From the NCBI GenBank assembly GCA_017413105.1, contig JAFPVA010000043.1, positions 1 through 58,492 of the forward strand: a stretch of 58,492 bases of DNA, read 5' to 3'. The translations under genes and the position numbers were made by a program. This document shows, piece by piece, positions 17,147 through 34,594 of this stretch (positions within the stretch are counted from its first letter, which is position 1; the number at the start of each line of letters is the position of its first letter). The notes under the pieces are model-generated. The model was not told where the DNA came from. It did not search any database and was given only the letters and a program-made list of their open reading frames with translations. The DNA is from Butyrivibrio sp. Lineage in GTDB: Bacteria > Bacillota > Clostridia > Lachnospirales > Lachnospiraceae.

Positions 17147-17319
17147 AATCCCATGAACCTATCTATATTATAACAAAAATGTGCATTTATAGCCTTTTCA
17201 ATGTGTGATAGCCAGCGGTTATATCAGGCGATAATTCTCATGTATTTTACGACTCCGTGATTTTAATGCATAATCTGATTTATCAAAACACAATACATTT
17301 CACGAGAGGAGAAAAAGTT

Positions 17320-18201: not shown

Positions 18202-18235
18202 TAGACTGCTTTTGGCAAAAATACTATGAAAACAT

Positions 18236-18270
18236 TGATATGGGAGAGCTTTCGGGCTCTCCTATATTCA
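18236..18270 (+). other. Intercistronic stem-loop after the binding-protein gene
   Basis: GGAGAGC / GCTCTCC around a TTTCGG loop, extended by ATAT/ATAT, sits between the binding-protein and first permease genes. With no T-run it probably protects the upstream mRNA and raises binding-protein yield over the membrane components, a common arrangement in importer operons. Confidence 0.65.
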
Positions 18271-18298
18271 TGTAAATAAACAGACAGGAACTAGAAAT

Positions 18299-18958: not shown

Positions 18959-19632
18959 AGGATATGGGATTTGAAGTTTTGTTAAAAGGAAGCAATATGA
19001 TAAGGCTTCTGACGGGGCTTTTGGTATCACTAAAGATAAGCTTCGTATCTGTGGCCATCAGCATTTTTCTCGGAGTGATCATAGGAATATTGATCACACT
19101 TAAAAATCCGGTATTAAACGTGATCTTCAGGGTATATCTGGAAATAGTCAGGATCATGCCGCAGATGGTGCTTCTTTTCATAGTTTACTTTGGAACAACT
19201 AAGGCACTTGGAATAAATCTTTCTGCGGAGACGGCATCGGTCATTGTGTTCTCTTTCTGGGGAACTGCCGAGATGTCAGATCTTGTAAGGGGGGCGCTTC
19301 TTAGCATACCGCTTATTCAATATGAGAGCAGCATGTCCCTGGGCCTTAATAAGCTGCAGACATACATCTATGTAATAGTTCCACAGATCATCAGAAGGAT
19401 GATTCCTCTGTCCATAAATCTGATAACACGTATGATCAAAACAACCAGCCTTGTCATGATGATAGGTATAGTTGAAGTCCTAAAGGTTGGTCAGCAGATC
19501 ATCGAGGCAAACAGGAAAGCATCGCCAAATGCTGCGTTTGGAATATTTCTGGTGATATTTATGCTATATTTTCTTGCATGCTGGCCAATAAGCATGCTGT
19601 CAAAACATCTGGAAAAGAAATGGGAGAACTGA
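18955..19632 (+). CDS. Polar amino acid ABC transporter permease 2
   Basis: A 225-residue second HisM/GlnP-type permease. It starts at GTG 18955 overlapping the stop of permease 1; the internal ATG at 18964 is too close to any ribosome binding site. It carries VYLEIVRIMPQMVLLFIVYF (~60-80) and the coupling loop SSMSLGLNKLQTYIYVIVPQ. It pairs with permease 1 in the CjaA-like importer. Confidence 0.9.
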   Translation: MKDMGFEVLLKGSNMIRLLTGLLVSLKISFVSVAISIFLGVIIGILITLKNPVLNVIFRVYLEIVRIMPQMVLLFIVYFGTTKALGINLSAETASVIVFSFWGTAEMSDLVRGALLSIPLIQYESSMSLGLNKLQTYIYVIVPQIIRRMIPLSINLITRMIKTTSLVMMIGIVEVLKVGQQIIEANRKASPNAAFGIFLVIFMLYFLACWPISMLSKHLEKKWEN

Positions 19633-19633
19633 G

Positions 19634-20383
19634 ATGGAAGAAATACTAAAGGTAAATAATATAAGTAAAAGGTATGAAGACATAACAGTTTTCGAAAAAA
19701 TGAACCTTTCTGTCAAGAAGGGAGAAGTGGTTGTAATAGTCGGTCCTTCCGGATGCGGAAAGAGTACTTTCCTTAGATGCCTTAATGCTCTGGAGGATAT
19801 TCAGGAAGGTGAGATAATCCTTGACGGTAAAACTGTCAGCGCAGATCAAAAAGATATTGTAGAGCTACGGGAAAGAGTCGGAATGGTCTTCCAAAGCTAT
19901 GAACTGTTTCCTCATCTGACAGTTCTTCAGAATCTTATGCTGGCACCTGTAAAGGTCAAGAAGAGAAACAAAAAAGAAGTTGAAAAGGAAGCTCTTGAGT
20001 TTCTTGAACGTGTAGGACTGTTATCCAAAAAAGACAACTATCCAAGGCAGCTTTCCGGTGGTCAGAAACAGAGAGTTGCAATTGTGAGAGCTCTTATCAT
20101 GCATCCCGAAATCCTTCTATTGGATGAGATAACAGCAGCTCTGGACCCTGAGATGGTAAAAGAGGTTCTGGACGTAGTTTTATCACTTGCAAAAGAGGGC
20201 AGAACCATGCTCATAGTTACACATGAAATGCAGTTTGCAAGAGCAGTGGCAGATAGAATGATCTTCATTGATGAGGGTCGTATAGTTGAGGAAGGCAGTG
20301 CCGAAGAGTTCTTCGAAAGACCTAAAACGGAAAGGCTACGTAAGTTTCTTCAGACTTTCTCATACGAATTGAAAGATGCATAA
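19634..20383 (+). CDS. Polar amino acid ABC transporter ATP-binding protein
   Basis: A 249-residue GlnQ/HisP-type ATPase: Walker A GPSGCGKST (~35), Q-loop FQSYELFPHLTV, signature LSGGQKQRVAI (~140), Walker B ILLLDEITAALDPE and H-loop VTHEMQFA. The usual LDEPTSALD reads LDEITAALD here. It begins one base after the permease stop and ends the operon at a terminator. Confidence 0.92.
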   Translation: MEEILKVNNISKRYEDITVFEKMNLSVKKGEVVVIVGPSGCGKSTFLRCLNALEDIQEGEIILDGKTVSADQKDIVELRERVGMVFQSYELFPHLTVLQNLMLAPVKVKKRNKKEVEKEALEFLERVGLLSKKDNYPRQLSGGQKQRVAIVRALIMHPEILLLDEITAALDPEMVKEVLDVVLSLAKEGRTMLIVTHEMQFARAVADRMIFIDEGRIVEEGSAEEFFERPKTERLRKFLQTFSYELKDA

Positions 20384-20420: not shown

Positions 20421-20459
20421 AAGTGGTCGTGGACGTGTTTCCGTGGCCACTTCTTTTTT
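20421..20459 (+). terminator. Terminator of the amino acid importer operon
   Basis: AAGTGG and CCACTT arms enclose a partly paired loop and are followed by CTTTTTT. Confidence 0.65.
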
Positions 20460-20593: not shown

Positions 20594-20671
20594 TATTAAT
20601 TCCAATCACAGCTATACAAAATAATTATAAGTCGCTATAAGGTTTGTGTAATTCTGCTCATCGCTTCACAG

Positions 20672-20728: not shown

Positions 20729-21634
20729 ATGACTTACGATAACACACTGCCGGATCTTGTAGATCCGCTTGAACACATATCTAACCAACATCCATGCTTT
20801 GGAAAAGGCCCAAATCTCAACAAGGGAAGGATTCATCTTCCTGTAAGTCCAAGCTGTAATATACAGTGTGCTTTTTGTAACAGGACTAGAAATGCTGATG
20901 AGAAAAGACCCGGTGTGACGCAGGAAATCTTGAGCCCACAGGAAGCTTCGGAAATAGTTGATAAGGCGCTTACCCTTTGCCCGGAGATCACGGTTGCGGG
21001 AATTGCAGGACCGGGAGATACACTGGCAAGCGACTATGCAATAGAGACCTTCAATATCATAAAGAAAACTCATCCTGAGCTAATTAACTGCCTTAGCACA
21101 AACGGTCTTCTTCTGGAAGAAAAGGCTGAAAGACTCATTGAAGCAGGTGTAAAGACAATAACGGTTACCGTTAATGCCGTAGATCCTGAAGTTTTGCAGC
21201 ACATAGTTTTGTGGATACAAAAGGACGGAGTGATCTACAGGGGAAAAGAAGGAGCGGAAATCCTTATAGCAGCTCAGAAGCGTGGCATTAAGAAGATCAA
21301 AGAGCTAGGGGCTATGGTAAAGGTAAACATGGTTCTTTGCCCGGGGATAAACGATCAGCACGTGGAAGAGGTTGCAAAGACTGTATCAGAGCTTGGAGCC
21401 GACTTCATGAATATCATCCCACTTATTCCACAGCATAAGCTAAAAGACCTTAAGGAACCCGGATGCATGGAGCTTCACGAGGCAAGACAGAAGGCGGAGA
21501 AATACATAAGGGTGTTCAGACACTGCCAGAGATGCCGTGCTGATGCAGCAGGAATTCCGGGAAAGGTTGAGATTTCTGATAAGCTATACAACTTAAAGAA
21601 GCTTAACGCAGAAAACACTTTTTCCCACGGCTGA
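20729..21634 (+). CDS. NifB-like radical SAM cofactor maturase
   Basis: A 301-residue radical SAM protein of the NifB family, the enzyme that fuses two Fe4S4 clusters and inserts carbide to form the 8-iron nitrogenase cofactor core. Visible NifB features are HPCF (21-24), the SAM cluster motif CNIQCAFC (Cys43, 47, 50), the VAGIAGPGDTLA stretch (~89), STNGLLL, VNAVDPEV (~146) and the C-terminal CQRCRADAAG, all with clear NifB counterparts. The NifX-like tail often fused to NifB is absent but is encoded by the next gene. The start follows GGGAGG. First gene of the nitrogenase-like operon; its presence means the reductase probably carries a NifB-derived cofactor. Confidence 0.88.
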   Translation: MTYDNTLPDLVDPLEHISNQHPCFGKGPNLNKGRIHLPVSPSCNIQCAFCNRTRNADEKRPGVTQEILSPQEASEIVDKALTLCPEITVAGIAGPGDTLASDYAIETFNIIKKTHPELINCLSTNGLLLEEKAERLIEAGVKTITVTVNAVDPEVLQHIVLWIQKDGVIYRGKEGAEILIAAQKRGIKKIKELGAMVKVNMVLCPGINDQHVEEVAKTVSELGADFMNIIPLIPQHKLKDLKEPGCMELHEARQKAEKYIRVFRHCQRCRADAAGIPGKVEISDKLYNLKKLNAENTFSHG

Positions 21635-21686
21635 TGCAAGATAAAGAAACTTGTGACAGGAACTGCAATTGAGCAGAGGAGTTGAG

Positions 21687-22037
21687 ATGAAATATTTGAT
21701 AGCGGTGGCATCATACGATGGTGCAAATATCGATCTTCACTTTGGACATACAGGAACTTTCAGTATTGTTGAGGTTACGGATAACAAGGAGTGGGACTTT
21801 ATAGGAGAAAGAGAGGTATCCCCCGGATGCAACGGAGAGTGCGATCATAACAGGATATATGAGGTTGGAGAGAGCCTTAAGGATTGTAAGTATGCTCTTT
21901 CAGCCAAGATAGGTCCCGGGGCAGCTTCGATACTAAGAAATCTAGGAATCATAGCACTGGAAATTGAGGCACCTATAGATTATGCAATTGAAAAACTGAT
22001 GATCTACGACCAGAGAAAAGTAAATGCAAACAGATAA
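21687..22037 (+). CDS. NifX/NifB-C-terminal-like cofactor-binding protein
   Basis: About 116 residues from ATG 21687 behind GAGGAG (an earlier in-frame ATG at 21669 is less well placed). It has the dinitrogenase iron-molybdenum cofactor domain fold seen in NifX, NafY and the NifB C-terminus: LHFGHTGTFSIVEV (~18-31), a Cys pair in PGCNGECDHNRIYEV, and KIGPGAASILRNLGI. Such proteins bind and shuttle the NifB product. It lies 52 bases after the nifB-like gene and probably serves as the carrier to the reductase. Confidence 0.85.
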   Translation: MKYLIAVASYDGANIDLHFGHTGTFSIVEVTDNKEWDFIGEREVSPGCNGECDHNRIYEVGESLKDCKYALSAKIGPGAASILRNLGIIALEIEAPIDYAIEKLMIYDQRKVNANR

Positions 22038-22064
22038 GAAATAAAGAATCGGAGGAGATGAAAA

Positions 22065-23009
22065 ATGGCAAAGGTAGCACAGGATTTGACGCAGCTTATA
22101 GGAGGAACACCCCTTCTTAAGCCCAACAGGTTTTTGAAGGTTCATGGCTTGGAAGCAGAGCTTTATCTAAAGCTTGAGTATTTCAATCCGGCAGGTTCGG
22201 TAAAGGACAGAATTGCCTACGCAATGATAAAAGACGCTGAGGAGAGAGGAATACTTAAGGAAGGATCAACTATCATCGAACCTACATCAGGTAATACAGG
22301 CGTAGGACTTGCCTTTGTCGGAGCAATCCTCGGATATCCGGTAATCCTTACAATGCCGGACACCATGAGTATTGAAAGAAGGACTCTGGTTGCTGCTCTT
22401 GGAGCACAGGTAATCCTTACCCCGGGAGCACAGGGGATGAATGGAGCCATAAGACAGGCGGAGGCTCTTAATGCCCAGATTCCTAATTCAGTTATCCTTC
22501 AGCAGTTTGAGAACCCGGCAAATGCCAAAACTCACGAGGAAACAACAGCTCAGGAGATCTGGAACGATACCGACGGAAAAGTTGATATCTTCGTAGGCGG
22601 AATCGGTACAGGCGGAACCATTACAGGAACAGGAAGAGGACTTAAAGCCCACAACCCTGACATTAAAGTAGTCGGCGTAGAGCCCTGGGAGTCAGCTGTT
22701 TTATCAGGTAAGCCATCAGGACCTCACAGGATTCAGGGTATCGGAGCAGGCTTTGTTCCAAAGGTTCTGGGTCTGGATATTCTGGATGAGATACTTCCTA
22801 TCAGAGGTGATGAGGCAATCGATGCATCAAGAGAGCTTGGAAGATATGAAGGACTCCTTGTTGGAATTTCATCGGGAGCTGCAGCCTGGGCAGGCTACCT
22901 TCTTGCAAAGAGACCTGAGAATAAGGGCAAGACAATTGTAGCACTGCTTCCTGACACAGGAGAGAGATACCTTTCAACGGATCTTTATAAATTTGGAAAC
23001 AATATCTAA
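22065..23009 (+). CDS. cysK: Cysteine synthase-like PLP enzyme
   Basis: A 314-residue fold-type II PLP enzyme of the O-acetylserine sulfhydrylase family. Hallmarks are the PLP lysine in NPAGSVKDR (Lys47), the substrate loop PTSGNTGVG (~73), the phosphate-binding GGIGTGGTITG (~178) and VGISSGAAAWAG near the C-terminus. It would join sulfide (or a thiol) to O-acetylserine to make cysteine (or an S-alkyl cysteine). It lies in the middle of the nitrogenase-like operon, with the same GGAGGAG-type ribosome binding site as its neighbours, so it should act on the product of that pathway. Confidence 0.92.
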   Translation: MAKVAQDLTQLIGGTPLLKPNRFLKVHGLEAELYLKLEYFNPAGSVKDRIAYAMIKDAEERGILKEGSTIIEPTSGNTGVGLAFVGAILGYPVILTMPDTMSIERRTLVAALGAQVILTPGAQGMNGAIRQAEALNAQIPNSVILQQFENPANAKTHEETTAQEIWNDTDGKVDIFVGGIGTGGTITGTGRGLKAHNPDIKVVGVEPWESAVLSGKPSGPHRIQGIGAGFVPKVLGLDILDEILPIRGDEAIDASRELGRYEGLLVGISSGAAAWAGYLLAKRPENKGKTIVALLPDTGERYLSTDLYKFGNNI

Positions 23010-23028
23010 TTCTAGGAGGAGATGAAAA

Positions 23029-24357
23029 ATGGCATGTTATGTTGAACGTCCCAGAACAACGTGTGCTTTGGGCGGCGCGATAGCTGTGATAAATGCTTTA
23101 CCCGGTGTGACACTGGTAAATCATACGGCTATTGGATGTGGTGGTAATTTGTCCGGTGCTATTTCCGGCGGAGCAGGCAACATGGGTGATGGAGTTTTTG
23201 CAGGCTCGCATATGCCAAGCTCAGCAGTTGGAGAAAAAGAAGTAGTGTTTGGCGGGGCTGACAGACTTACAGAGGAAATTACAAATGCCCTGGATGTAAT
23301 CGATGCTGAGCTATTCGTGGTAGCAACAGGCTGTATGACTGAGATGATAGGTGATGATGTTGAAGCTGCCGTAAGAAAGGTTCAAAATCCCAGAAAGCCG
23401 GTTATATCTATCAGTACTCCTTCCTTTAAGGGTGATGCCTATGCGGGCTACGAAATAATTCTTGATGCGATCTTTAACAAGTTCATTCCAAAAGCAGAGA
23501 AAAAGGAAGAGAAGCTTGTAAACATCTTCGGAATCGTGCCCGGATTCGATCCTCTTTTCAGAGGTGATTTAAGAGAGATAAAAAGACTTCTTGAAAGACT
23601 TGGACTTAAGGTAAACACCTTCTTTACAGCAGACCAGACCTTTGACAATGTACTTAATGCTTCTAAGGCATCTCTCAATATTCTTCTTTCACCTGTTTGG
23701 GGAACAACAGTTGTAAAGAATTTCGAGGAAGTACATGGAACTCCTTACTTCCAGACAACACTTCCAATCGGTGCGCTTCAGACAGCGAGGTTCCTAAGAA
23801 AGCTATCAGAGCATATAGATATTGACCCGGCGCTCCTGGAAGAGGTGATCAAAACTGAGACAGATGAGTATTATGAAGACTTCATAAGGGCGTCAGATAC
23901 AATCGCCAATAGGCAGTGGTTCTTTTACTCAGCAACAGTTACTAATTCCAACTATGCGATTCCCCTTGGAGAGTTCTTATACAAGGAACTTGGCTGGCAT
24001 CAGGAGGATACCTTTGTTACAGATCAGCTAAAGCCCATAAAGAAAAGAGCTCTTGTAAAAGCTTTTGATGAAACCGACTTTGGTTCAAAGCTCACACTTG
24101 ATACAGATACCCAGAGAATAAGCAGAACTCTTAATAAGACGAGGCCAAGAAATCAGGGACAGAGATACTGGGATAACAAGACTCCATTCTTCCTTCTGGG
24201 CAGCAGCCTTGACAGGGCAACAGCTGCTGAAGTCGGCGGAGTTGCACTTCCTGTCAGCTTCCCGCTTAGCTCAAGGCTCATAACAACCAGAGGTTATGCA
24301 GGCTTTAGGGGCGGACTTGCACTTGTAGAAGATATTTACAGCACATTACTTGGATGA
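23029..24357 (+). CDS. Nitrogenase-like component 1, NifK (beta)-like subunit
   Basis: A 442-residue member of the nitrogenase component 1 superfamily. It has only four cysteines: Cys3 and the three that match P-cluster ligands, Cys12 (RTTCALGGA), Cys37 (AIGCGGN) and Cys102 (VATGCMTEMIGDDV). EVVFGGADRLTEEI just before Cys102 is the family's E..VFGG..L segment. There is no cofactor-binding cysteine in the second half, so I assign it as the beta-like partner of the next gene. It is shorter than NifK (~510-520). The order K then D is the reverse of classical nif and mar operons. The substrate cannot be told from this chain. Confidence 0.85.
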   Translation: MACYVERPRTTCALGGAIAVINALPGVTLVNHTAIGCGGNLSGAISGGAGNMGDGVFAGSHMPSSAVGEKEVVFGGADRLTEEITNALDVIDAELFVVATGCMTEMIGDDVEAAVRKVQNPRKPVISISTPSFKGDAYAGYEIILDAIFNKFIPKAEKKEEKLVNIFGIVPGFDPLFRGDLREIKRLLERLGLKVNTFFTADQTFDNVLNASKASLNILLSPVWGTTVVKNFEEVHGTPYFQTTLPIGALQTARFLRKLSEHIDIDPALLEEVIKTETDEYYEDFIRASDTIANRQWFFYSATVTNSNYAIPLGEFLYKELGWHQEDTFVTDQLKPIKKRALVKAFDETDFGSKLTLDTDTQRISRTLNKTRPRNQGQRYWDNKTPFFLLGSSLDRATAAEVGGVALPVSFPLSSRLITTRGYAGFRGGLALVEDIYSTLLG

Positions 24358-24375
24358 TAGGGAGGAGAATGCGAA

Positions 24376-25920
24376 ATGGCTGAAATTCAAGATAAAGAAA
24401 AAAATTACTATACCGCTGCGATGCCTCCTGTTAGAGATACCAGGCTGCAGATTGCAGATACGTTCCACGGATGTTCCTGTGAAATGTCTGACTGTCTAAG
24501 GTCCGGCTGTTCACTTAAAAAGAACAGAACCTTCTGGCAGACCAATGCATGCCAGATGTCACTTACACTGATGATGTGCTCAACAGTTCAGAATTCGGTC
24601 ATCGTTATGCACGGTCCAATAGGATGCGGTACACAGCTTCACGGCCTTTCCGCCAATGCGGCAAAGGGTAAGGCTACAAGAGGGACACCGGATCAGAAAC
24701 CTCCGGTATGGCTTACAACAAACCTTGGCGAGACTGATGTAATTAACGGTGGCGAGAAAAAGCTCCAGGAGACAATAGAGTATGCGGACAGAACCTACAG
24801 ACCTGAGATAATCTTCGTCATTGCAACCTGCGCACCAAACATTATAGGAGATGACGTTGAGAAAATCGTCAACATAACAAACGATACCTGCGCAGCTCAG
24901 GTCACAGCACTTCACTGTCCGGGCTTCAGATCAAGAGTTGTATCATCTGCCTACGACAGCTTCTATCACAGTCTTATCAGACATATAGGGTTTAAGCCGA
25001 TTCCGTATAAGGATTATGTTCCAAATAACCCGGCAGATCCTTCCGCAGAGCTTGGAGATGCAATCTTTGATTACAAGGTAAAGCACACGGTAAATCTATT
25101 TAACGCCACATCCATAGGGCCTCAGGATGAAGCAGAGATAGTGAGACTTCTTAATGCCCTGGGACTTAACGTTAGGATCTATGCTGAGTATTCAAGCGCC
25201 GATGACTTCAGAATGCTTCCTTTCGCAGCTCTTAACGTGAGCCTTTGTAACATGCATGACGACTATATGCTGAAGTTCCTTGAGCAGGAATACCACATGC
25301 CTTACATCATTGAAGGAATGCCAATCGGTCCTGATCAGACAAGGAAATGGCTTGTAGCTATAGGTAAGTTCTTTGGTCTGGAAAAAGAGGCTGAGCTTCT
25401 TGCAGATTATGAGGAGAAAAAGCTTACTGAAGCGATTGAACCTCTGATTCCTTCATTCAAGGGAAAGAGAGTACTTCTTGGAGGCGGCGCGGTGAGAGTT
25501 GCAGCAGAAGCAATCGCTCTTAATAGGATCGGACTTGATATAGTCAGCATCAGAGGCTACAACATCGATTCCAACGCTAATCCGGTATTTGATGACCTGG
25601 GAGATGAGCTTCCTGATGTACCACTTACAGTAAGTAATCAGGCTTACGAATTTGTAAACCAGCTACTGCAGAACAAGCCTGATCTCGTTATAACCCATAA
25701 CGGATCTCTGGGAATTCCCGCAAGACTTGGATTTCCTGCAATACAGCTCTTTGATGTGGGAGCATCGTATTTTGGATATACAGGCTTTTACAGCCTTGCA
25801 AAGCGCATAAGATTTGCTCTTGAAAATAACAACTATGCCGAAAACATCGCAAAGCATGCGCGCCTTCCGTACAGGAAGGAATGGTACGAAAAAGATCCAT
25901 TCACATATCAGAAGGATTAA
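24376..25920 (+). CDS. Nitrogenase-like component 1, NifD (alpha)-like subunit
   Basis: A 514-residue catalytic-type subunit. Cys59, Cys84 (HGPIGCGTQ) and Cys152 (ATCAPNIIGDDV) sit at the spacing of the NifD P-cluster ligands. Cys291 (NVSLCNMHDDYML, followed by EYHMPYIIEGMPIGPD) corresponds to NifD Cys275, which binds the cofactor. The region equivalent to the cofactor His442 (MHSWDYSGPYHGYDGF in NifD) reads LFDVGASYFGYTGF with no histidine. The N-terminus carries an additional CxCx4Cx4C motif (33, 35, 40, 45). It is likely the active-site subunit of a reductase distinct from N2-fixing nitrogenase. It follows nflK by 18 bases. Confidence 0.85.
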   Translation: MAEIQDKEKNYYTAAMPPVRDTRLQIADTFHGCSCEMSDCLRSGCSLKKNRTFWQTNACQMSLTLMMCSTVQNSVIVMHGPIGCGTQLHGLSANAAKGKATRGTPDQKPPVWLTTNLGETDVINGGEKKLQETIEYADRTYRPEIIFVIATCAPNIIGDDVEKIVNITNDTCAAQVTALHCPGFRSRVVSSAYDSFYHSLIRHIGFKPIPYKDYVPNNPADPSAELGDAIFDYKVKHTVNLFNATSIGPQDEAEIVRLLNALGLNVRIYAEYSSADDFRMLPFAALNVSLCNMHDDYMLKFLEQEYHMPYIIEGMPIGPDQTRKWLVAIGKFFGLEKEAELLADYEEKKLTEAIEPLIPSFKGKRVLLGGGAVRVAAEAIALNRIGLDIVSIRGYNIDSNANPVFDDLGDELPDVPLTVSNQAYEFVNQLLQNKPDLVITHNGSLGIPARLGFPAIQLFDVGASYFGYTGFYSLAKRIRFALENNNYAENIAKHARLPYRKEWYEKDPFTYQKD

Positions 25921-25941
25921 CGATAAGAAAGAGGAGAATGA

Positions 25942-26796
<855 letters not shown>

Positions 26797-26828
26797 TATG
26801 AAAATCACCCGATTAGGAGGAGAGAAAA

Positions 26829-27953
26829 ATGAAAAAAATATTAGCGCTAGCCCTTACAGGAGCTTTAACACTGTCTATTGTTGCCTGCGGAACTGCTGTT
26901 TCCGGAAATACTGCCGCTGAAAATACTGCCGCTGAAAATACTGCGACAACCCAGAGTGAATCTAATGAGAGCACGGCTGATGCAGGAAAGACTACCGAAG
27001 TAGAAGTTGCAGATTACTCTACATTATCTGCCGATGAGCTTGATAAGTTATACAGCGAAGAGGCTGCAAGCAAAACCACTATTCATATAGGCTACAGCGG
27101 AGGTCTTTGCCAGGTTGCCCTTCCGGTTGCACAGCACTATGGATTCTTTGAGGATGAAGGTCTTACTACAGAGCTGACCTCTTCTGAAGATTCAAGAGAT
27201 GCACTTGCTGCCGGCAAGATTGACACCGCAGCTGGAATGATAGCCCAGTGGCTTACATCAGTTCAAAACGGCGTTGATATCAAGTTCACCCTGGGACTTC
27301 ACACAGGCTGTGCTGCAGCAGTGGTCCTTCCTGACTCAGAGTATCAGGGCTTTGAAAAGGGCATGAAGATTGGATTTGTAGGTGCCTTCGGCGGTGTTTA
27401 CCACAACATTGCCAACAGATTTGTGGCCCATGATGGCTTTACAGAGGAGGATTTCACCTGGCTTGGATTTGATGACAGTGCAGTACTTCTTGCTCTTCAG
27501 GATGGAGAGGTTGATGCAATAGTTGTCAGCGAGCAGCTTTCCAAGAATTGGGAAAAAGAGGGAAAGGTAAGACAGATAAGATCACTTACAACAGACGATG
27601 ATTTTAAGGATGAAGCATGCTGCGTACTTGGTATTTCAGGAAAGTTCCTGGAGGCAAATCCTGTTGCCAGCTACAAGATCTCAAGAGCAGTTTACAACGC
27701 TTCAAACTGGCTTGCTGAGAGTGAAGCTAACAGAGCTGATGCAGCAAAGATGCTTATCGAGAATGGATACATTTCCGGAACAGAGGAATATGCACTTGAG
27801 CTTCTCAACTACTATAAGTTTGGTTTAACACCTGAAGTTACCGAGAAATCACTTTATGACTCGGTCGATGAGTACACGAAGCTTGGAGTTCTTGATAAAA
27901 ACGCAGACGCAGAAGCATTTAAGAAAAAAATCTATTACGCTTATAAATTCTAA
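26829..27953 (+). CDS. NMT1/SsuA-type ABC substrate-binding lipoprotein
   Basis: A 374-residue lipoprotein (lipobox IVAC, Cys20) with a low-complexity linker that includes an AENTA repeat, then an NMT1/THI5-like (nitrate, sulfonate, taurine, thiamine-precursor class) binding domain: IHIGYSGGLCQVALPVAQHY, GFFEDEGLTTEL, then a LGLHTGCAAAVVLPDSEY stretch that may line the ligand site. It lies 32 bases after the nifH-like gene with AGGAGGAG, clearly in the same operon, so it should import the reductase substrate. The ligand is unknown; by family a small sulfonate, thioether or other organosulfur anion is plausible. Confidence 0.85.
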   Translation: MKKILALALTGALTLSIVACGTAVSGNTAAENTAAENTATTQSESNESTADAGKTTEVEVADYSTLSADELDKLYSEEAASKTTIHIGYSGGLCQVALPVAQHYGFFEDEGLTTELTSSEDSRDALAAGKIDTAAGMIAQWLTSVQNGVDIKFTLGLHTGCAAAVVLPDSEYQGFEKGMKIGFVGAFGGVYHNIANRFVAHDGFTEEDFTWLGFDDSAVLLALQDGEVDAIVVSEQLSKNWEKEGKVRQIRSLTTDDDFKDEACCVLGISGKFLEANPVASYKISRAVYNASNWLAESEANRADAAKMLIENGYISGTEEYALELLNYYKFGLTPEVTEKSLYDSVDEYTKLGVLDKNADAEAFKKKIYYAYKF

Positions 27954-27967
27954 GAGGAGGGGAACCT

Positions 27968-28981
27968 GTGGCCGAGCATATTTCACTACAACAGCTGCAT
28001 GATCTTGAGGCAGAAAGAAATAAAAAGTCAACACTCCAATTGACCATAGACAGGATAGTGGCTGCACTTCCCATTTTTGCCGGGATACTTCACATAGCTG
28101 AATATCTTTTTATTCCAAATTATGGAATGAATACCTGTACTTATGTGTACGCTTATTTCCTTGGAATCGGTGTACTTATCTGGATCATTCTGTACGTTAT
28201 ATCTTTTTTCAGATCAACACTTTATGAAAAGCTCCATTACAAATCAGCACTGTATACAGTTCTTTTCCTGCTTCTGATGGCTTATGATCTTTTGACCTTA
28301 AAGAGTGGAAGACTGATAATGCCATATTTTCCGTGGCTGGATAAGATAATCAATTCCATAATAGCTGACAGGATAAAGCTCCTTGACAGTGCATATCATT
28401 CCTTAAAGCTTTTGTTCACCGGTTATTTAGGAGGTGTAGCTGCAGGTCTTGTGTGCGGAATAGGCGCCGGTTGGTCCAAGAAGATCAGGTACTGGATAAA
28501 TCCTTTTGTAAGGATTTTGGGCGCCATTCCAACCACAACCTATATGCCGATCATCATGATCCTTGCAACATCTCTTTTCGGAGGAAGTGCTTTCCTTATC
28601 GGTCTTGGAGTGTGGTTCCCTGTTACAGTATCTTCTCTTACAGGTGTAAGCAACATCAATTCTCATTATTATGAGGTAGCTCAGACTCTCGGAACTTCAA
28701 AGCTGGGTATTCTGTTCAGAGTAGTAATACCTGCCGCTATGCCTACAGTATTTGGAGGTCTTACACAGGGTATGAGCGTTGCCTGCATCACACTTATGGC
28801 TGCTGAGATGATGGGCGTTGAATCCGGACTTGGCTGGTATATCAACTGGCAGAAGGGCTGGGCAGAATTCGGAAAGATGTACGGAGCAATAATAATAATC
28901 TGTTTCATCTTTGTTATCGTAAACAGCCTTCTTAATGTAATTAAGGGAAGAGTACTCAGATGGCAGAAAGGAGAGGCCTGA
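27968..28981 (+). CDS. ABC transporter permease (SsuC/TauC class)
   Basis: A 337-residue permease starting at GTG behind AGAGGAGGGG. It is longer than usual SsuC/TauC because of an N-terminal region with three extra hydrophobic segments (~28-110) before the binding-protein-dependent transport core (~135-330). The coupling EAA loop is VAQTLGTSKLGILFRVVIPA near residue 237. It forms the pore for the importer whose ligand protein is upstream and whose ATPase overlaps its stop codon. Confidence 0.88.
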   Translation: MAEHISLQQLHDLEAERNKKSTLQLTIDRIVAALPIFAGILHIAEYLFIPNYGMNTCTYVYAYFLGIGVLIWIILYVISFFRSTLYEKLHYKSALYTVLFLLLMAYDLLTLKSGRLIMPYFPWLDKIINSIIADRIKLLDSAYHSLKLLFTGYLGGVAAGLVCGIGAGWSKKIRYWINPFVRILGAIPTTTYMPIIMILATSLFGGSAFLIGLGVWFPVTVSSLTGVSNINSHYYEVAQTLGTSKLGILFRVVIPAAMPTVFGGLTQGMSVACITLMAAEMMGVESGLGWYINWQKGWAEFGKMYGAIIIICFIFVIVNSLLNVIKGRVLRWQKGEA

Positions 28982-29766
28982 TGGATAAGGGACATATAGA
29001 AATAAACGGCGTTACCAAGATATTCAGAAGGACTGACGGAATAGAGACTCTGACTGCCCTTGATAATGTGAACCTTGATATCAAACCAGGGGAGTTTGTA
29101 TCATTCGTAGGTTCAAGTGGTTGTGGTAAATCCACAATGTTAAGGATCATTGCGGGACTTGAAGTGCCTACCATTGGAAAGGCTATATGTGACGGTGAGG
29201 AGATAACAGGCACCAGTTCAAAGAGAGGCCTGGTTTTCCAGGATCATGCTCTTTTCCCCTGGCTAACTGTCTGGGATAACGTATTATTCGGACTTAAGTC
29301 AACAGGAAAGGGAAAAGAGAAGCAGGAGCTGGCGGAATACCTTCTAAAGCTGGTAGGACTTGAGAACTTCAAAAAGTCCTATCCCTACCAGCTCTCGGGA
29401 GGTATGTCCCAGAGAGTTGCTCTTGTAAGAGCTCTGGCTAATGAGCCGGATGTACTTCTTTTGGATGAGCCTTTGGGAGCCTTGGATGCTTTCACCAGAA
29501 TGAGTATCCAGGATGTGCTCATTGACCTTTGGAAGGAGAGAAACAACACTATGATCCTTATAACCCATGATGTGGATGAGGCAATTTACCTATCCCAGAG
29601 GGTTGTGGTCATGTCTCCGAGACCGGGACGTGTCATTGAAAATCTTAAGATTGAACTTCCTTACCCAAGGAACAGGAGTGATCTTAATTTTACTTATTAC
29701 AGAAATCACATTTTGGAACAGCTTGATTTTGCACATAAGGCTGGCCAGATTGAATATGTGATCTAA
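28981..29766 (+). CDS. ABC transporter ATP-binding protein (SsuB/TauB class)
   Basis: About 261 residues from ATG 28981, which shares a base with the permease TGA and follows AAAGGAG. Walker A GSSGCGKST, Q-loop VFQDHALFPWLTVWDNV, signature LSGGMSQRVALVRA, Walker B VLLLDEPLGALDAFTR and H-loop ITHDVDEA are complete; the PWLTVWDNV and LDAFTR words are typical of nitrate/sulfonate/taurine ATPases. It completes the importer embedded in the nitrogenase-like operon. Confidence 0.92.
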   Translation: MDKGHIEINGVTKIFRRTDGIETLTALDNVNLDIKPGEFVSFVGSSGCGKSTMLRIIAGLEVPTIGKAICDGEEITGTSSKRGLVFQDHALFPWLTVWDNVLFGLKSTGKGKEKQELAEYLLKLVGLENFKKSYPYQLSGGMSQRVALVRALANEPDVLLLDEPLGALDAFTRMSIQDVLIDLWKERNNTMILITHDVDEAIYLSQRVVVMSPRPGRVIENLKIELPYPRNRSDLNFTYYRNHILEQLDFAHKAGQIEYVI

Positions 29767-29799
29767 AAAATGAAAAAAATATTGTGAGGGACAAAAACC

Positions 29800-30231
29800 A
29801 TGAAGAACAAAACTGTTTCTATTTCTACTGTTATATTAGGACTTTTGGCGGCAGTTGGACCAAGGACACTTTTTCCTGTCTGCAGCGCTGCTGAAATGAA
29901 AATGAGATGCTACTATACAGCAAATGCAGAGCTTGTCGTTGGAATACTGGCAGCTGCAGTCGGAGCCGCTTTATTATTCGTTGCGGACAGAAAGCTCAAG
30001 ATCGCATTATCAGCCGGCGTAGTAATCCTTGGCCTTCTTATTCTTCTTTTCCCAACTGCTATTACCGGTGTATGCGGAAATCCGATGATGCACTGCGTTT
30101 CATTGACTAAGCCATCACTTATCGTGATCGGAGTATTAGAGACTTTTACAGGCATAGCATCAGTAATCTTTAGCATTCAGACAGAAACTACTGAAATTGG
30201 ATTGAAGGTAAAAAAACTTGCGAATAACTAA
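29800..30231 (+). CDS. DUF4418 membrane protein
   Basis: A 143-residue protein with four hydrophobic helices and the DUF4418 signature words LFPVC (24-28), MRCYYTANAE (~35-44) and CGNPMMHC (~93-100). The conserved cysteines and methionines near the membrane surface suggest metal or thiol chemistry, but the function of the family is unknown. It overlaps the start of the following FtsX-type permease gene by 14 bases, so the two are coupled. Its place straight after the importer ties it to the same physiological system. Confidence 0.8.
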   Translation: MKNKTVSISTVILGLLAAVGPRTLFPVCSAAEMKMRCYYTANAELVVGILAAAVGAALLFVADRKLKIALSAGVVILGLLILLFPTAITGVCGNPMMHCVSLTKPSLIVIGVLETFTGIASVIFSIQTETTEIGLKVKKLANN

Positions 30232-31435
30232 AATTGCACTAAGGAAAATTATAAATGACAGAACCGGTGGAGTGGCAGCTCTTATTTTTGCTGTCGTTTT
30301 ATCTTTTACCATTTTTGTCGGACATATTCTCTCTTACAGCCTTTCTGTAGGTTCGAGTAACCTTAAGGACAGGCTGGGAGCAGATATAGCAGTGGTTCCC
30401 AAGGGGCAGGAGGAAAGCTACCAGGGGATACTTCTTAGCGGAGAACCGGTAGAATACTCCATTGAGCGCAGCCTTGAGGATGACATACGGGCTATTGAAG
30501 GGGTAAAAGAAGTAACACCGGTGGTATATCTGGCTAGCCTTGCAGCCACCTGTTGTTCGGCTCCTGTCCAGATCATAGGCTATGATCCTGAGACTGATTT
30601 TGTTACGACGCCCTGGATATCTGAAAGGTATACCAAGAGCTATAGCGAAGGAAATCTCGTTATCGGAAGCAACATCGCAGTTGATGATAATAATGAGCTG
30701 TCCTTTTTCGGAAGAAAGTACGGAGTAAAGGCGAAATTAAACAAGACCGGCACAGGAATGGATAAATCTGTTTATGTTACCTTCGATGTGATGGAGCAGA
30801 TGATTAAAGATGCCAGGGATAAAGGCGTTGAATTCGGAGACAGCCTATCGGAGGATACAGGCGAAAAGATAACTGCTAAATACGTCTCAGCGTTTCTTGT
30901 AAGAGTTGATCCAACTGCTAATCCTGAATATGTTTCAGCTCTTATTCTCAGAAATATTCCGGCAGGCGTTGTTCAGAGCAGAAATGTTATCTCGTCGGTC
31001 ACAGACGGTATTGGACTTATCTCAAAAGTTATTGCCGTTATCATAATCGCAGCAATGATCCTTATCACCATTGTCACTGCGGTTTTGCACCTGTTCAGGG
31101 CAAACGTGCGGAAAAAAGAATGGGCGACTTTCAGGATGATGGGAGCTTCTGATAACTGGATATCAGCGCTCATTGTTACTGAGACTACCCTGCTTTCTCT
31201 TATAGGTGCTGTTGTTGGAATTGGCCTCGGAGCTCTGATTATCTTTTCATATAGTGAGTACATTTCGCTTCAGATTGGCCTTCCATATATTACGCCGGGG
31301 TCTTTTGATATATTAAAAGCTATATTTCTTAGCCTGGGATTTACTGCGATAAGTGGCGTGGTTCCTGGGATTATTGCAGGAATAGCCGCAGGTGAGACCG
31401 AGTGCTATGAACTAATGCGCGAAGGAGAAGTTTAA
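30218..31435 (+). CDS. FtsX/MacB-type ABC permease
   Basis: A 405-residue permease starting at TTG inside the DUF4418 gene (GAAGG ten bases before). One N-terminal helix, an extracytoplasmic MacB-like domain (~40-255) and three C-terminal helices with the FtsX core WATFRMMGASDNWISALIV. The outer domain has an unusual vicinal cysteine pair in LAATCCSAPVQIIGYDPETD. Such permeases work as mechanotransmitters or lipoprotein/peptide exporters with a LolD-type ATPase, which is the next gene. The substrate is unknown. Confidence 0.8.
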   Translation: MRITKIALRKIINDRTGGVAALIFAVVLSFTIFVGHILSYSLSVGSSNLKDRLGADIAVVPKGQEESYQGILLSGEPVEYSIERSLEDDIRAIEGVKEVTPVVYLASLAATCCSAPVQIIGYDPETDFVTTPWISERYTKSYSEGNLVIGSNIAVDDNNELSFFGRKYGVKAKLNKTGTGMDKSVYVTFDVMEQMIKDARDKGVEFGDSLSEDTGEKITAKYVSAFLVRVDPTANPEYVSALILRNIPAGVVQSRNVISSVTDGIGLISKVIAVIIIAAMILITIVTAVLHLFRANVRKKEWATFRMMGASDNWISALIVTETTLLSLIGAVVGIGLGALIIFSYSEYISLQIGLPYITPGSFDILKAIFLSLGFTAISGVVPGIIAGIAAGETECYELMREGEV

Positions 31436-31436
31436 A

Positions 31437-32102
31437 ATGGCGATTGTCGCAAGTAGCGTTGTCAAAGAATATAAAAGAAGAGAAAAGAAGTTCAGAGCGG
31501 TAGATGATGTCAGCATCGAAGTACCAAAAGGAAAGATAACAGTAGTTATGGGACATTCAGGCAGTGGGAAGAGCACGCTGATAGGAATTTTGTCCGGAAT
31601 GATAAGACCTGAAGCCGGGGTTGTATCAATAGATGGAAAAGATATACAGGATAAGAGCAACAGGCAAAGGGATAAGATAAGAGCTGCGACGATTGGAATG
31701 ATACCTCAGTCCCAAAGCCTTATCGGAGGCCTTACCGTCTATGAGAACATAAAGCTCCAGTCAGCATTTTCTAAAGCCGGGACGGATTCTGATGGAAAAG
31801 CCCTGGATGATATGATTGGTGACTTAGGACTTAGTGAAGTCAGGAATATGCTTCCGCACAGGCTTTCCGGGGGTGAAATGAAAAGAGCTGCAATAGCAAG
31901 AGCTCTGTCGGGAAATCATGACTACATTTTTGCAGACGAACCCACAGGGGAGCTTGACAGTGAGAACTCCGATCGTGTAGTTAATGCTTTTCGGAAAAAA
32001 GCTGATGAAGGAAAGGGAATACTTATTATAACCCATGACAGCCTTGTGGCTGAAAAGGCAGACATACTGTATCACATGGAAAATGGAACACTTAGTAAAT
32101 AA
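31437..32102 (+). CDS. LolD/MacB-type ABC ATP-binding protein
   Basis: A 221-residue ATPase with Walker A GHSGSGKST, Q-loop IPQSQSLIGGLTVYENI, signature LSGGEMKRAAIARAL, Walker B YIFADEPTGELDSENS and H-loop ITHDS. ADEPTGxLD is the mark of the MacB/LolD class. It begins one base after the permease stop and completes a three-gene membrane module with DUF4418. The end of this gene seems to be the end of the operon, as a new promoter follows. Confidence 0.9.
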   Translation: MAIVASSVVKEYKRREKKFRAVDDVSIEVPKGKITVVMGHSGSGKSTLIGILSGMIRPEAGVVSIDGKDIQDKSNRQRDKIRAATIGMIPQSQSLIGGLTVYENIKLQSAFSKAGTDSDGKALDDMIGDLGLSEVRNMLPHRLSGGEMKRAAIARALSGNHDYIFADEPTGELDSENSDRVVNAFRKKADEGKGILIITHDSLVAEKADILYHMENGTLSK

Positions 32103-32104
32103 CT

Positions 32105-32133
32105 GTTAAAACTTAATGGTTTAGGGCTATAAT
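32105..32133 (+). promoter_or_regulatory. Probable promoter of the MalY-type gene
   Basis: A consensus -10 TATAAT at 32128-32133 with a weak -35 (GTTAAA at 32105) 17 bases upstream, some 34 bases before the start codon. Confidence 0.5.
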
Positions 32134-32166
32134 AAGAATAATTTGACGCGATGGGAGGCAACACCT

Positions 32167-33351
32167 ATGAAGAACAGCTTTGATGTACTGATCGACAGGC
32201 GGGGAACATCATGCCTTAAGTATGACTTTGGTATGGAGAGGAAGGGACGTGACGACCTTCTTCCGCTTTGGGTAGCGGATATGGATTTCAGACTTCCTGA
32301 TGAGGTTATAGAAGATCTGCAAAAGAGGGTGAGTCATGGAATCTTCGGATACACGGACCCAAAGGATGATTACTATGATGCCCTGAATCGCTGGTTCTCA
32401 AAAAGGCATGGTTATACTGTTGACAGGCAGTGGAATATTATAACTCCCGGCGTTGTCTATGCTATTTCTATGGCTATAAGAGCCCTTACAAAAGAGGGTG
32501 ACAGCATCCTTATACAGCAGCCTGTCTATTATCCCTTTGCAAGCATGGTAAAGCTTAATAACAGAAATGTTGTGAATAATCAGCTGGTATTCAATAAAGA
32601 AGCCGGAAGATATGAGATTGATTTTGACGATCTTGAAAAGAAGATAAAAGAAGAAAAGGTAAAGATGGTTCTTTTCTGCAGCCCTCACAATCCGGTGGGA
32701 AGAGTGTGGACCAGGGAGGAAATTCTAAGATTTGCAGATATATGCAAAGAAAATGATGTATATATTTTCGCAGATGAGATTCATGCGGATTTTGTTTATG
32801 AGGGGCATAAGCATATATCATTTATGACTTTGGACGATGAGTATAGAGAAAAACTCATAGTCGGAACATCTCCAAGCAAGACCTTCAACATAGCGGGACT
32901 CCAGATTGCAAATATATTTGTTCCAAATGAGAGCGTAAGAGATGCTCTGAAAAAAGAGAACGACGCAGCAGGCTATAGCCAGTGCAATGCGATTGGGCTG
33001 ACGGCAACAACATCTGTTTATACAAAGGGTGAACAGTGGCTAGATGAGCTTCTTCGGTATCTTAAGGGAAATGTGGATTATGTCCGCAGCTTTTTGCAGG
33101 AGAAGCTTCCGCGGGTCAAACTCATCGAACCTGAAGGAACATATCTTATCTGGCTTGATTTTTCTGAGATAGTGAAAGACCACAAAGAGCTTGAAAAGCT
33201 TATAGTAGATAAGGCTCATCTTTGGCTTGATCCGGGAATCATCTTCGGAAGAGAGACAGCTCTTTTTGAAAGAATCAATATCGCAGCGCCCAGGGCTACC
33301 ATTGAAAAGGCACTTGAACAGTTGTGCGCAGCAGTGATCGGTCATAAGTGA
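32167..33351 (+). CDS. MalY/PatB family PLP-dependent C-S lyase
   Basis: About 394 residues from ATG 32167, behind GGGAGG (an in-frame ATG at 32143 precedes the ribosome binding site). A fold-type I PLP enzyme of the MalY/PatB branch: LPLWVADMDFRLPDEV near the N-terminus, PHNPVGRVW (~178), the FADEIHADFVY aspartate region and the PLP lysine in TSPSKTFNIAGLQ (~240). These enzymes cleave the C-S bond of cystathionine, cysteine or related S-alkyl cysteines to thiol, pyruvate and ammonia. Next to a sulfur-linked reductase cluster it probably works in the same cysteine/methionine network. Its own promoter suggests separate control. Confidence 0.88.
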   Translation: MKNSFDVLIDRRGTSCLKYDFGMERKGRDDLLPLWVADMDFRLPDEVIEDLQKRVSHGIFGYTDPKDDYYDALNRWFSKRHGYTVDRQWNIITPGVVYAISMAIRALTKEGDSILIQQPVYYPFASMVKLNNRNVVNNQLVFNKEAGRYEIDFDDLEKKIKEEKVKMVLFCSPHNPVGRVWTREEILRFADICKENDVYIFADEIHADFVYEGHKHISFMTLDDEYREKLIVGTSPSKTFNIAGLQIANIFVPNESVRDALKKENDAAGYSQCNAIGLTATTSVYTKGEQWLDELLRYLKGNVDYVRSFLQEKLPRVKLIEPEGTYLIWLDFSEIVKDHKELEKLIVDKAHLWLDPGIIFGRETALFERINIAAPRATIEKALEQLCAAVIGHK

Positions 33352-33421
33352 GCAAAGAATTATCTGAAAGAATACCAATATACTGATGAAATGAAAATAT
33401 GGGCATGAGGAGCGGTAAAGT

Positions 33422-34594
33422 ATGGATTGTAGTGGTTGTAATAAATGCAAAGTGGCTGTATGCAGTATAGATACAAAGTGTCAGCTATTGGACAGAAGTT
33501 TGATGGATCAGTGGGGAGCTGTCAGTTTTCCTATATATCAGACTGCAACATTTGCGCATCCCGGTCTTGGAGAGAGTACCGGCTATGACTATACAAGGAT
33601 GCAGAATCCTACGCGAAAGCAGCTGGAGACTATTGTTGCAAACCTTGAAAATGGTAAGGATGCAATTGCGTTTTCAAGCGGAATGGCTGCCATAGCAACT
33701 GTTATGGAACTGTTTGAGCCCGGCGACCACTTCATTATTGATGAGGACCTTTACGGAGGAAGTATCCGTCTTTTTAACGAGATAAGTAAAAAGAATGGTC
33801 TTGAATACACTGCCATCAGCTTAAGCAATGAAGATCCTACACCTTTCATAAAAGAGAATACTAAGGCAATTTATCTTGAAACACCAACCAATCCGATGAT
33901 GAATGTCACTGATATTCAAAAGCTTTCTGCTATAACAAGAGAAAAGAAGCTGCTTCTCATTGTAGACAACACCTTCTTATCTCCGTATTTCCAGAATCCC
34001 CTTGATCTTGGCGCTGACATCGTCATTCATTCGGGAACCAAGTTTCTTGGCGGACACCACGATACCATCGGAGGTTTTGTGGTGGTCAAAGATGAGGAGA
34101 TTGATGAGAGACTGCGCTTTATTTATAAGACAACAGGCGCCGGCCTTAGTCCTTTTGACAGTTGGCTTATCTTAAGGGGAATAAGAACCCTTGCGGTAAG
34201 GCTTGAAAGAGCCCAGGAAAATGCCTTAAAACTTGCACAGTTCCTTAAGAATAACAAGCATGTTACTAAGGTTATCTATCCGGGACTTCCTGAGCATCCG
34301 GGCTATGAGATCATGAAAAAGCAGGCCAGAGGCTTTGGTGCGATGATCACCTTTGAGGTTGAGTCAGAAGAATTTGCGAGAAAGATCTTGAATAATGTGC
34401 AACTTATCTACTTCGCAGAAAGCCTTGGTGGAACAGAAACACTTATCACATATCCGATAACTCAGACTCATGCCGATGTTCCAAAAGAGGTTCTTGAAAA
34501 GAACGGAATAAGCGGAAGACTCCTGAGACTTTCCGTGGGAATTGAGGGAATAGAGGACCTGATAAAAGAATTCACCAGAGTTTTCGAAGCATGA
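33422..34594 (+). CDS. Cys/Met metabolism gamma-family PLP enzyme with Cys-rich N-terminus
   Basis: A 390-residue member of the cystathionine gamma-synthase/gamma-lyase/methionine gamma-lyase family: GAVSFPIYQTATF (~33), YDYTRMQNPTRKQLE, SSGMAAI (~90), ETPTNPMMNVTDI (~150), the PLP lysine in HSGTKFLGGHHD (~202) and SLGGTETLITYP near the end. The exact reaction cannot be decided by eye. Unusually, the first 20 residues carry five cysteines (3, 6, 9, 14, 20) in a CxxCxxC pattern, resembling a metal or Fe-S site and absent from ordinary family members. It follows the MalY-type gene by 70 bases and ends at a shared terminator. Confidence 0.88.
   Translation: MDCSGCNKCKVAVCSIDTKCQLLDRSLMDQWGAVSFPIYQTATFAHPGLGESTGYDYTRMQNPTRKQLETIVANLENGKDAIAFSSGMAAIATVMELFEPGDHFIIDEDLYGGSIRLFNEISKKNGLEYTAISLSNEDPTPFIKENTKAIYLETPTNPMMNVTDIQKLSAITREKKLLLIVDNTFLSPYFQNPLDLGADIVIHSGTKFLGGHHDTIGGFVVVKDEEIDERLRFIYKTTGAGLSPFDSWLILRGIRTLAVRLERAQENALKLAQFLKNNKHVTKVIYPGLPEHPGYEIMKKQARGFGAMITFEVESEEFARKILNNVQLIYFAESLGGTETLITYPITQTHADVPKEVLEKNGISGRLLRLSVGIEGIEDLIKEFTRVFEA

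Follow-up and report, generated by a model that had tools for sequence, protein, structure and literature searches.

A nitrogenase-like reductase locus of Butyrivibrio with a dedicated cysteine synthase: a candidate sulfur-scavenging system apparently distinct from methylthio-alkane reductase

A run of 14 open reading frames, all on the plus strand and with intergenic spacing of −22 to 70 bp, occupies positions 20729 to 34594 of contig JAFPVA010000043.1 from the Butyrivibrio sp. assembly GCA_017413105.1; the whole 58,492-nt stretch analyzed is referred to here as the window. The genes encode, in this order, the nitrogenase-like (Nfl) proteins NflB and NflX, the cysteine synthase CysK, NflK, NflD, NflH, a three-gene ABC importer, a DUF4418 protein, an FtsX-like permease, a LolD-like ATPase, PatB, and a pyridoxal phosphate (PLP)-dependent enzyme of Cys/Met metabolism (Table 1). 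Genes were assigned in hidden Markov model (HMM) searches with NCBIfam/TIGR and Pfam models, and the scores were compared with the curated cut-offs. Together with the open frames and their spacing, these assignments bear out the tightly spaced NifB-to-NifH run with importer and PLP enzymes that had been drawn in the original prediction. The same gene neighborhood recurs in relatives, so the run is not a chance arrangement; Butyrivibrio hungatei DSM 14810 carries this module as well (L025/L064).

NflB scores 271 bits against TIGR01290, below the cut-off of 344, and its NifX-like part is encoded as a separate gene. No further PF00148 proteins were found in the window's genome, a draft estimated to be 95% complete and 7% contaminated, and hence nifE, nifN, and nifDK were not found there. 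The original prediction listed nifE, nifN, nifV, nifU, nifS, and any VnfG/AnfG as absent; this stands for nifE and nifN in the draft genome, and for VnfG/AnfG to the extent that the run has no spare gene that could be one, no HMM search having been aimed at either.

Table 1. Features of the nfl locus, in coordinates of the window
Feature	Position	Strand	Assignment
Candidate regulator site CTATA-N8-TTATA	20612..20629	+	117 bp 5' of nflB
nflB	20729..21634	+	NifB-like radical SAM protein; CX3CX2C at residues 43-50; without NifX domain
nflX	21687..22037	+	NifX-like cluster carrier; PF02579, 47 bits
cysK	22065..23009	+	Dedicated cysteine synthase A; TIGR01139, 420 bits, above cut-off of 351
nflK	23029..24357	+	Oxidored_nitro protein; probable P-cluster ligands Cys12, Cys37, Cys102
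nflD	24376..25920	+	Oxidored_nitro protein; probable P-cluster ligands Cys59, Cys84, Cys152; probable cofactor ligands Cys291, His441
nflH	25945..26796	+	Canonical NifH-type Fe protein; TIGR01287, 453 bits, above cut-off of 394
Substrate-binding lipoprotein, SsuA/NMT1-class	26829..27953	+	Invariant Cys94, Cys161, Cys264, Cys265
ABC permease	27968..28981	+	Nearest model SaoP, below cut-off
ABC ATPase	28960..29766	+	Nearest model SaoA, below cut-off
DUF4418 protein	29800..30231	+	HMM match
FtsX-like permease	30218..31435	+	Named from the original prediction and gene order; no NCBIfam match at E 1e-20
LolD-like ATPase	31437..32102	+	Below cut-off
PatB-family C-S lyase/cystathionine beta-lyase type	32167..33351	+	TIGR04350, 466 bits, above cut-off of 340
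MetB/MetC/MGL-type PLP enzyme	33422..34594	+	None of 25 listed NCBIfam models (of 42) reaches its cut-off

The D and K proteins were compared using open frames from 20 regions of relatives, 79 named loci, and 3 plasmid regions (L and G numbers are our designations of loci and genomes). The named loci were kept from the best 80 of at least 580 genome-scan matches, a sample biased towards the window. Sequences longer than 370 aa were retained if D or K was the family model that fitted them best, identical ones were dropped, and MarD and MarK of the methylthio-alkane reductase (Mar) were added from Protein Data Bank (PDB) alignments. The 40 plasmid records listed, out of 248, carried mostly nifD/nifE and one Nfl cluster (Chlorohelix), which was used as a reference. 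These data yielded a joint tree of 225 D and K rows and a second tree, with 73 D rows, built with IQ-TREE (quick search, SH-aLRT support only), in which long branches were flagged among the plasmid rows, including those from a Nostoc plasmid region, and which does not include the Sinorhizobium NifD row.

Outside the Nif D/E proteins, the D sequences fall into three clades, designated W, M, and T, with SH-aLRT support of 100 each. Clade W (85 rows in the joint tree) includes the window's NflD and spans several phyla; clade M (18 rows) includes MarD and the Heliophilum protein L106_803; clade T (6 rows) was seen in this set solely in the window's genus. The K partners form matching groups in the joint tree (support of 0.99, 1.0, and 0.999). 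The K gene precedes the D gene in 69 of 72 W pairs, whereas D precedes K in 16 of 17 M pairs and all 6 T pairs. Among solved structures, both proteins are nearest to Mar, with E values of 2.3e-53 for NflD and 1.2e-62 for NflK versus 4.9e-23 and 2.6e-32, respectively, for the next match (Nif or NifEN), and Mar was also ranked first by Foldseek with the NflD model (mean predicted local distance difference test [pLDDT] score of 73). Against the NifD model TIGR01282, NflD scores 119.7 bits, below the cut-off of 653.55; the NifD controls scored 639, 686, 686, and 865 bits, so that one of them is itself below that cut-off. Judged from their sequences, NflD and NflK are neither Nif/Anf catalytic components nor the Mar of Rhodospirillum rubrum but members of the separate, well-supported clade W, and on both counts the original prediction is upheld by the trees, the active-site residues described below, and the K-D gene order. 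The possibility of a true nitrogenase locus was rejected on the NifD score, the failure to find NifEN in the draft genome, and the separate D clade.

In a B protein tree, in which one very long branch (L040) limits further use, the window's NflB groups with other NflB proteins. The clade T loci are L030 (position 12231), L031 (8619), L032 (9927), L033 (10719), L034 (9083), and L035 (15632). The plasmid cluster of “Candidatus Chlorohelix” (L122) has the order B-X-H-D-K and belongs to clade M, and its record names nifB and nifH as nitrogenase genes.

Residue columns are given here in MarD numbering, checked against passages of PMC12552129. The P-cluster cysteines Cys66 and Cys91 are each found in 84 of 85 clade W proteins, the misses being due to one gene truncated at a contig start, and Cys158, as well as the cofactor ligands Cys270 and His429, in all 85 (window equivalents are in Table 1). 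All 94 K-side rows in the part of the tree containing the W and M partners keep the K cysteines. The pocket, however, differs: Arg428 and Phe199 are found in none of the 85 W proteins (all have Tyr in place of the latter), Trp195 in 4, and His375 in 46, whereas each of these four residues is present in 18/18 clade M proteins, of which 16 have His429. The Arg428-His429 pair, proposed as the Mar hallmark in passages of PMC12552129, is thus reduced in clade W to its histidine. In the window's NflD, Tyr and Val occupy the columns of NifD His195 and Gln191, and NifD His442 is aligned to a gap. With the ligand columns kept and the Mar pocket residues gone, it is plausible that clade W holds the same two clusters as Mar in a different pocket. 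In clade T, all the Cys ligand positions are kept, and the His429 equivalent is lost in 6/6 proteins. Two clade M proteins (L053, 3556-5019, and L068, 1474-2955) have Ala at the His429 column and His at the next one, which could be a shifted ligand or an alignment slip.

The most common neighbor of clade W is cysteine synthase. In clade W, 60 of the 85 loci have a CysK gene no more than 3.5 kb away from D; the corresponding counts are 7 of 17 for clade M and 4 of 6 for clade T. The internal cysK pointed out in the original prediction thus proves to be a linkage kept across phyla. After clustering of clade W at 70% identity, CysK is found in 23 of 33 clusters, and at 50% in all 6. Genomes of the genus carry 0 to 4 strong CysK matches, and the chance of meeting a CysK in a random stretch of such size is, by our own arithmetic, below 1%. 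In the CysK tree (78 rows, midpoint-rooted, with some long branches flagged and with CysKs of organisms without Nfl left out), a starred branch divides off a side of 61 rows that includes 54 of the 56 W-adjacent copies; the remaining two are second copies in Paenibacillus. A further nine CysKs, which come from T loci and from the same genomes, make up a starred group of their own. Among the 79 genus genomes, the seven CysK copies with at least 64% identity (G000, G114, G029, G031, G041, G055, and G123) all lie beside a W-type D, and the next, with 63% (G120), belongs to a genome without a D match; G106, G114, and G123 were assigned as W carriers by identity and gene order rather than by tree. 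With this recurrence of a dedicated CysK, the usual clade W partner is an enzyme taking sulfide.

The window's draft genome shows no PF01077 domain (NIR_SIR, siroheme sulfite/nitrite reductase). Counting this genome, the domain is missing from 26 of the 33 genomes searched, and it was not found in the W carriers G029, G031, G041, G042, G055, and G060. The lack of this domain in the window's genome disfavors sulfite as the product in this host.

The original prediction made its reading depend on a linkage of cysK, importer, and PLP enzymes in relatives. This linkage holds for cysK and, in part, for the importer, which is often adjacent, but only in a minority of W loci for the other sulfur enzymes: PatB is found within 9 kb of D in 14 of 85 W loci and a MetC-type gene in 7. 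In the Butyrivibrio group, both genes also stand beside M and T systems; elsewhere, PatB is found near W in L053, L056, and L063. Likewise, of the two proposed C-S lyases, PatB exceeds its family cut-off, but the last PLP enzyme could be a cystathionine gamma-synthase, a cystathionine beta-lyase, a cystathionine gamma-lyase, or a methionine gamma-lyase (MGL). It can be assigned to none of these, because none of the listed models reaches its cut-off, and on such scores it is not callable as a lyase. CysK, PatB, and this enzyme would fit an assimilation of sulfide to cysteine and then to homocysteine equally well.

For NflH, a reading as a nitrogenase-like reductase of group IV has to be corrected. 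Besides exceeding the NifH cut-off, it scores 434 bits in pairwise comparison with the NifH of 1cp2, which we take to be that of Clostridium pasteurianum, versus 286 with MarH. In the H tree (50 rows, two dividing branches being implausibly long and MarH not being a row), NflH groups with NifH of the nif clusters L039 to L041 and with 17 further H proteins, which belong to W, M, and T loci of the Butyrivibrio/Lachnospiraceae set; 29 group-IV H proteins stand apart (support of 100). By score and tree placement NflH is a canonical NifH and not a group-IV reductase; the placements called for by the original prediction are thus clade W for D and K and canonical NifH for H. The group-IV H has been retained in L046, with a D protein sharing 68% identity with the NflD of the window, and in Anaerocolumna (Lachnospiraceae; L102 and L116). 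In the Butyrivibrio group, NifH seems to have replaced the group-IV reductase, apparently an exchange of the reductase and not of the catalytic part.

The same pattern extends through the genus and the family. NifH is above the cut-off in 39 of 79 genus genomes and NifD in none (best score 159.5 bits, compared with 639 to 686 bits for three NifDs of the same order). When the two match tables are read together, 38 of these 39 nifH genes have a nitrogenase-like D gene on their own contig at a distance of no more than ~5 kb, and the remaining one is interrupted by a contig end. Fifteen genus genomes have at least four NifD-model matches, and 14 of these have one NifH above the cut-off; several D/K pairs are served by one NifH in L030, L032, G033, G042, and G106. 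Among 397 genomes drawn evenly from the window's family, taken to be the Lachnospiraceae, 52 encode NifH above the cut-off, and 12, all among those 52, have a NifD match (E of 1e-60 or better, 628 to 684 bits), formally above 653.55 in 3. The other 40 all encode PF00148 proteins (E 1e-20), in 37 cases, counted by eye, on the NifH contig within ~6 kb and in three with NifH on another contig; these D/K sets are known by profile match, not by tree placement. The alternative-nitrogenase alpha model had no match in these 40 genomes at E 1e-45; two NifD-bearing controls matched it, below its cut-off.

The designation of the importer as sulfonate-class holds as a superfamily label only, since all of the relevant scores are below the cut-offs (SsuA_fam, 54 of 163.5; SaoX, 52 of 300; SaoP, 86 of 295; SaoA, 259 of 360). 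Among 53 binding-protein matches, the 32 strong family members (two being the same contigs fetched twice) all have Cys94, Cys161, Cys264, and Cys265, and the 21 weaker ones lack the full set; in a 17-row alignment these cysteines, His158, and Arg197 are invariant. A four-Cys binding protein lies within 7 kb of D in 30 of 85 W loci, no M loci, and one T locus. Several relatives (L045, L047, and L062) have additional CC pairs in the linker that follows the lipobox. The model of the window's protein (mean pLDDT of 87) falls in the SsuA/TauA/THI5/NrtA fold class, but its matches favor no particular ligand, and assignment of the cargo from structure was rejected for this reason. The cysteine stretch of THI5, presumably the iron-binding CCCFC, aligns near Cys264-265, which is suggestive only. 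An ABC importer was also rejected as a mark of the clade: a substrate-binding protein lies within 3.5 kb in 37 of 85 W loci versus 1 of 17 M loci, yet the contigs are short.

A terminator-like hairpin at 20421-20452 separates the run from the polar-amino-acid ABC importer directly upstream, so that the operon probably starts at nflB. That importer (17257-20383) resembles cystine and glutamine importers, with scores below the cut-offs; at 13556-16839, a solute-binding-like lipoprotein with a Glu/Ala-rich tail is followed by a methyl-accepting chemotaxis-like protein (judged by eye). The dyad CTATA-N8-TTATA, which we take to be a LysR-like T-N11-A motif, is found 83 to 117 bp 5' of nflB in four loci (the window; L043, 6283; L044, 1062; L045, 2927) and 267 bp 5' in L057 (5235). 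It is exact in three of these loci and has one mismatch in two, against a background of 0.05 per kb over 25 loci; it was not found in like form in L023, L046, and L047, and no conserved alignment of the whole upstream region was seen beyond it. Riboswitch or T-box control was rejected, as Rfam gave no match at the gathering threshold and nothing meaningful at E values up to 1. A sigma-70 scan gave 17 sites, below the shuffled mean of 26.9.

The locus thus appears to encode a conserved reductase of sulfur metabolism, probably metallocluster-bearing, that is Mar-like in its working but is not Mar. With moderate confidence, we regard it as a sulfur-scavenging operon in which reductive C-S cleavage by NflDK gives sulfide or a thiol for the adjacent cysteine synthase. 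NflB and NflX would build an [Fe8S9C]-type cluster that is then placed in NflD, and NflH would feed electrons, in an ATP-driven manner, via the P-cluster to this cluster. A small organosulfur compound would be imported, and NflDK would break a C-S bond in it reductively; CysK would capture the resulting sulfide, or a thiol yielding it, as cysteine, and PatB and the MetB/MetC-type enzyme could pass sulfur towards homocysteine and methionine or free it from thioethers. This scheme builds on features read from the sequences, namely, the clade, the metal-ligand positions, the loss of Mar-specific residues, the NifH-type reductase, and the co-inherited cysK, from which cluster occupancy, C-S cleavage, sulfide as the product, and the importer's cargo are extrapolated.

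Several observations weigh against it. There is no direct evidence for any substrate of NflDK, the importer belongs to a family without diagnostic value, and we can offer no reason for the four cysteines of its binding protein. No CysK is found within 3.5 kb in 25 of 85 W loci, some of them on short contigs, and the dedicated copy is missing in 3 of the 10 W carriers identified in the genus (G042, G060, and G106). NIR_SIR is found in 2 of 25 genus genomes searched, a near genus-wide absence that is a constraint rather than a specific sign, and in 5 of 7 W carriers outside the genus reached via the named loci (in L053, L056, L085, L102, and L106; not in L046 and L073). Finally, 8 of 85 W proteins have Gln at the NifD Gln191 column. 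The NIR_SIR count outside the genus and this Gln leave our estimate unchanged, because both concern other members of clade W.

The alternative that survives best, though unlikely, is Mar proper, with 2-(methylthio)ethanol or dimethyl sulfide as the substrate and methanethiol as the product released. MarBHDK of R. rubrum, reportedly the subject of North et al. in 2020, is the nearest solved relative and shares with the window's system the NifB-type maturase, the P-cluster cysteines, both [Fe8S9C] ligand positions, the lack of NifEN, and a sulfur-metabolism neighborhood. However, MarD belongs to clade M, with its four fixed pocket residues; the window's NflD lacks Arg428 and Phe199 and has Val for Trp195, and its locus differs from Mar in the K-D order, the cysK partner, the canonical NifH as the reductase, and the importer. 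Slightly less probable still is an isethionate/sulfonate reductase like IsrBHDK of Rhodobacter capsulatus, which, according to passages of PMC11423573, releases sulfite and requires the SsuCAB importer. Isr is likewise an Nfl enzyme of anaerobic sulfur assimilation with an SsuA-class importer, such as adjoins NflH here, and most of the seven W carriers reached outside the genus have a NIR_SIR protein. Nevertheless, the same passages describe an IsrD without equivalents of Cys62, Cys154, Cys275, and His442 (the cofactor ligands and two P-cluster cysteines) and an IsrB that is not NifB-like. Judged against this description, IsrD not being in our trees, the window's proteins do not carry the Isr signature: the cluster cysteines and the Mar-type His are kept, NflB is NifB-like, and the window's genome yielded no NIR_SIR domain.

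It is improbable that the substrate is a soft-metal- or metalloid-bound or organoselenium compound and not an ordinary organosulfur nutrient. The four invariant cysteines of all 32 strong binding proteins and a permease and ATPase nearest to the Sec-assisted organometallic (SAO) importer models (passages of PMC13188914) would suit such a cargo, but all SAO models stay below their cut-offs, other W loci use binding proteins without the four cysteines, and sulfur is indicated by the linkage to CysK. An unconventional nitrogenase of the kind suggested for NfaDK of Endomicrobium proavitum is the least probable of all: the canonical NifH, the retained [Fe8S9C]-type ligand positions, the Gln191 of some W proteins, and the 15N2 incorporation by Endomicrobium without NifEN recounted in a passage of PMC9147875 speak for it, but L106_803, taken as NflDK1 (Nfa-type) by its nflH adjacency, falls in the Mar clade and not in W, the window's NflD has neither His195 nor Gln191 nor an aligned His442, NifEN was not found in the draft genome, and the recurring partners are sulfur genes.

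The sulfur-scavenging operon favored here resembles two further known systems. Like Mo-nitrogenase NifHDK, it has a NifH, but its D and K proteins are distant, NifEN was not found, and the His442-type ligand is absent. Group IV-A Nfl genes occur near type I mlp methyltransferase clusters, and some W loci similarly have URO-D-type, corrinoid, and RACo genes, which the window's run lacks; URO-D-type, B12-binding, and RACo-type activase genes near W in L081, L088, and L113 recall the mlp clusters in passages of PMC10418091. There, group IV-A genes are linked by inference to sulfur and methionine metabolism and the Fig. 7 legend names CysK, MetC, and PatB; neither the Discussion nor those passages deal with a ligand signature, an importer, or a replacement by NifH. 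In our trees, group IV-A is represented by one proxy, L106_803, which falls in clade M, not W; Heliophilum carries NflDK1 to NflDK5, and its Nfa-type NflDK1 adjoins nflH (passages of PMC9147875). Genes of this kind in Clostridium indolis were earlier filed under nitrogen fixation (a passage of PMC4149025). Mar, Isr, and the sulfur link of group IV-A genes are therefore already known; no title or abstract beginning describing clade W, the ligands conserved in it, its association with cysK, or the exchange of its reductase for NifH was found in a search that left out most subscription papers and bioRxiv preprints, and passages of PMC11659671, PMC12330013, and PMC13067680 contain mentions or citations only.

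As a tentative extension, clade W may be a third sulfur-cleaving nitrogenase-like class, acting as a desulfurase and passing sulfide directly to a cysteine synthase that evolved with it, with several D/K pairs and different importers sharing one reductase and one maturase; in the Butyrivibrio group, W and its sister systems would have recruited a true NifH, and most gut and rumen “nifH” genes of this family would then mark sulfur scavenging and not nitrogen fixation. Clade W would add to sulfur metabolism a large enzyme clade with probable nitrogenase-type metalloclusters, and its pocket change relative to Mar is testable. In passages of PMC6776011, 23% of 501 rumen genomes are nitrogenase-positive by NifH, yet nifH expression is low and in situ fixation is called negligible. 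Igai et al. (passages of PMC4995403) named Klebsiella and Clostridiales as candidate nitrogen fixers of the human gut and found gut Cluster III NifH closest to Lachnospira and Butyrivibrio, adding that such strains were untested for fixation and that some lacked the NifD His. The Lachnospiraceae are not claimed here to be free of N2 fixers, as 12 genomes carry NifD. However, the true-looking nifH of Nfl loci could mislead nifH-based counts of nitrogen fixers, which bears on the use of Butyrivibrio-type Cluster III nifH as a fixer marker and on the contradiction between NifH-positive rumen genomes and negligible in situ fixation: NifH without NifD, as seen in 40 of the 52 NifH-positive family genomes, could be the reason why “diazotrophs” are counted in gut and rumen although fixation is not measurable there.

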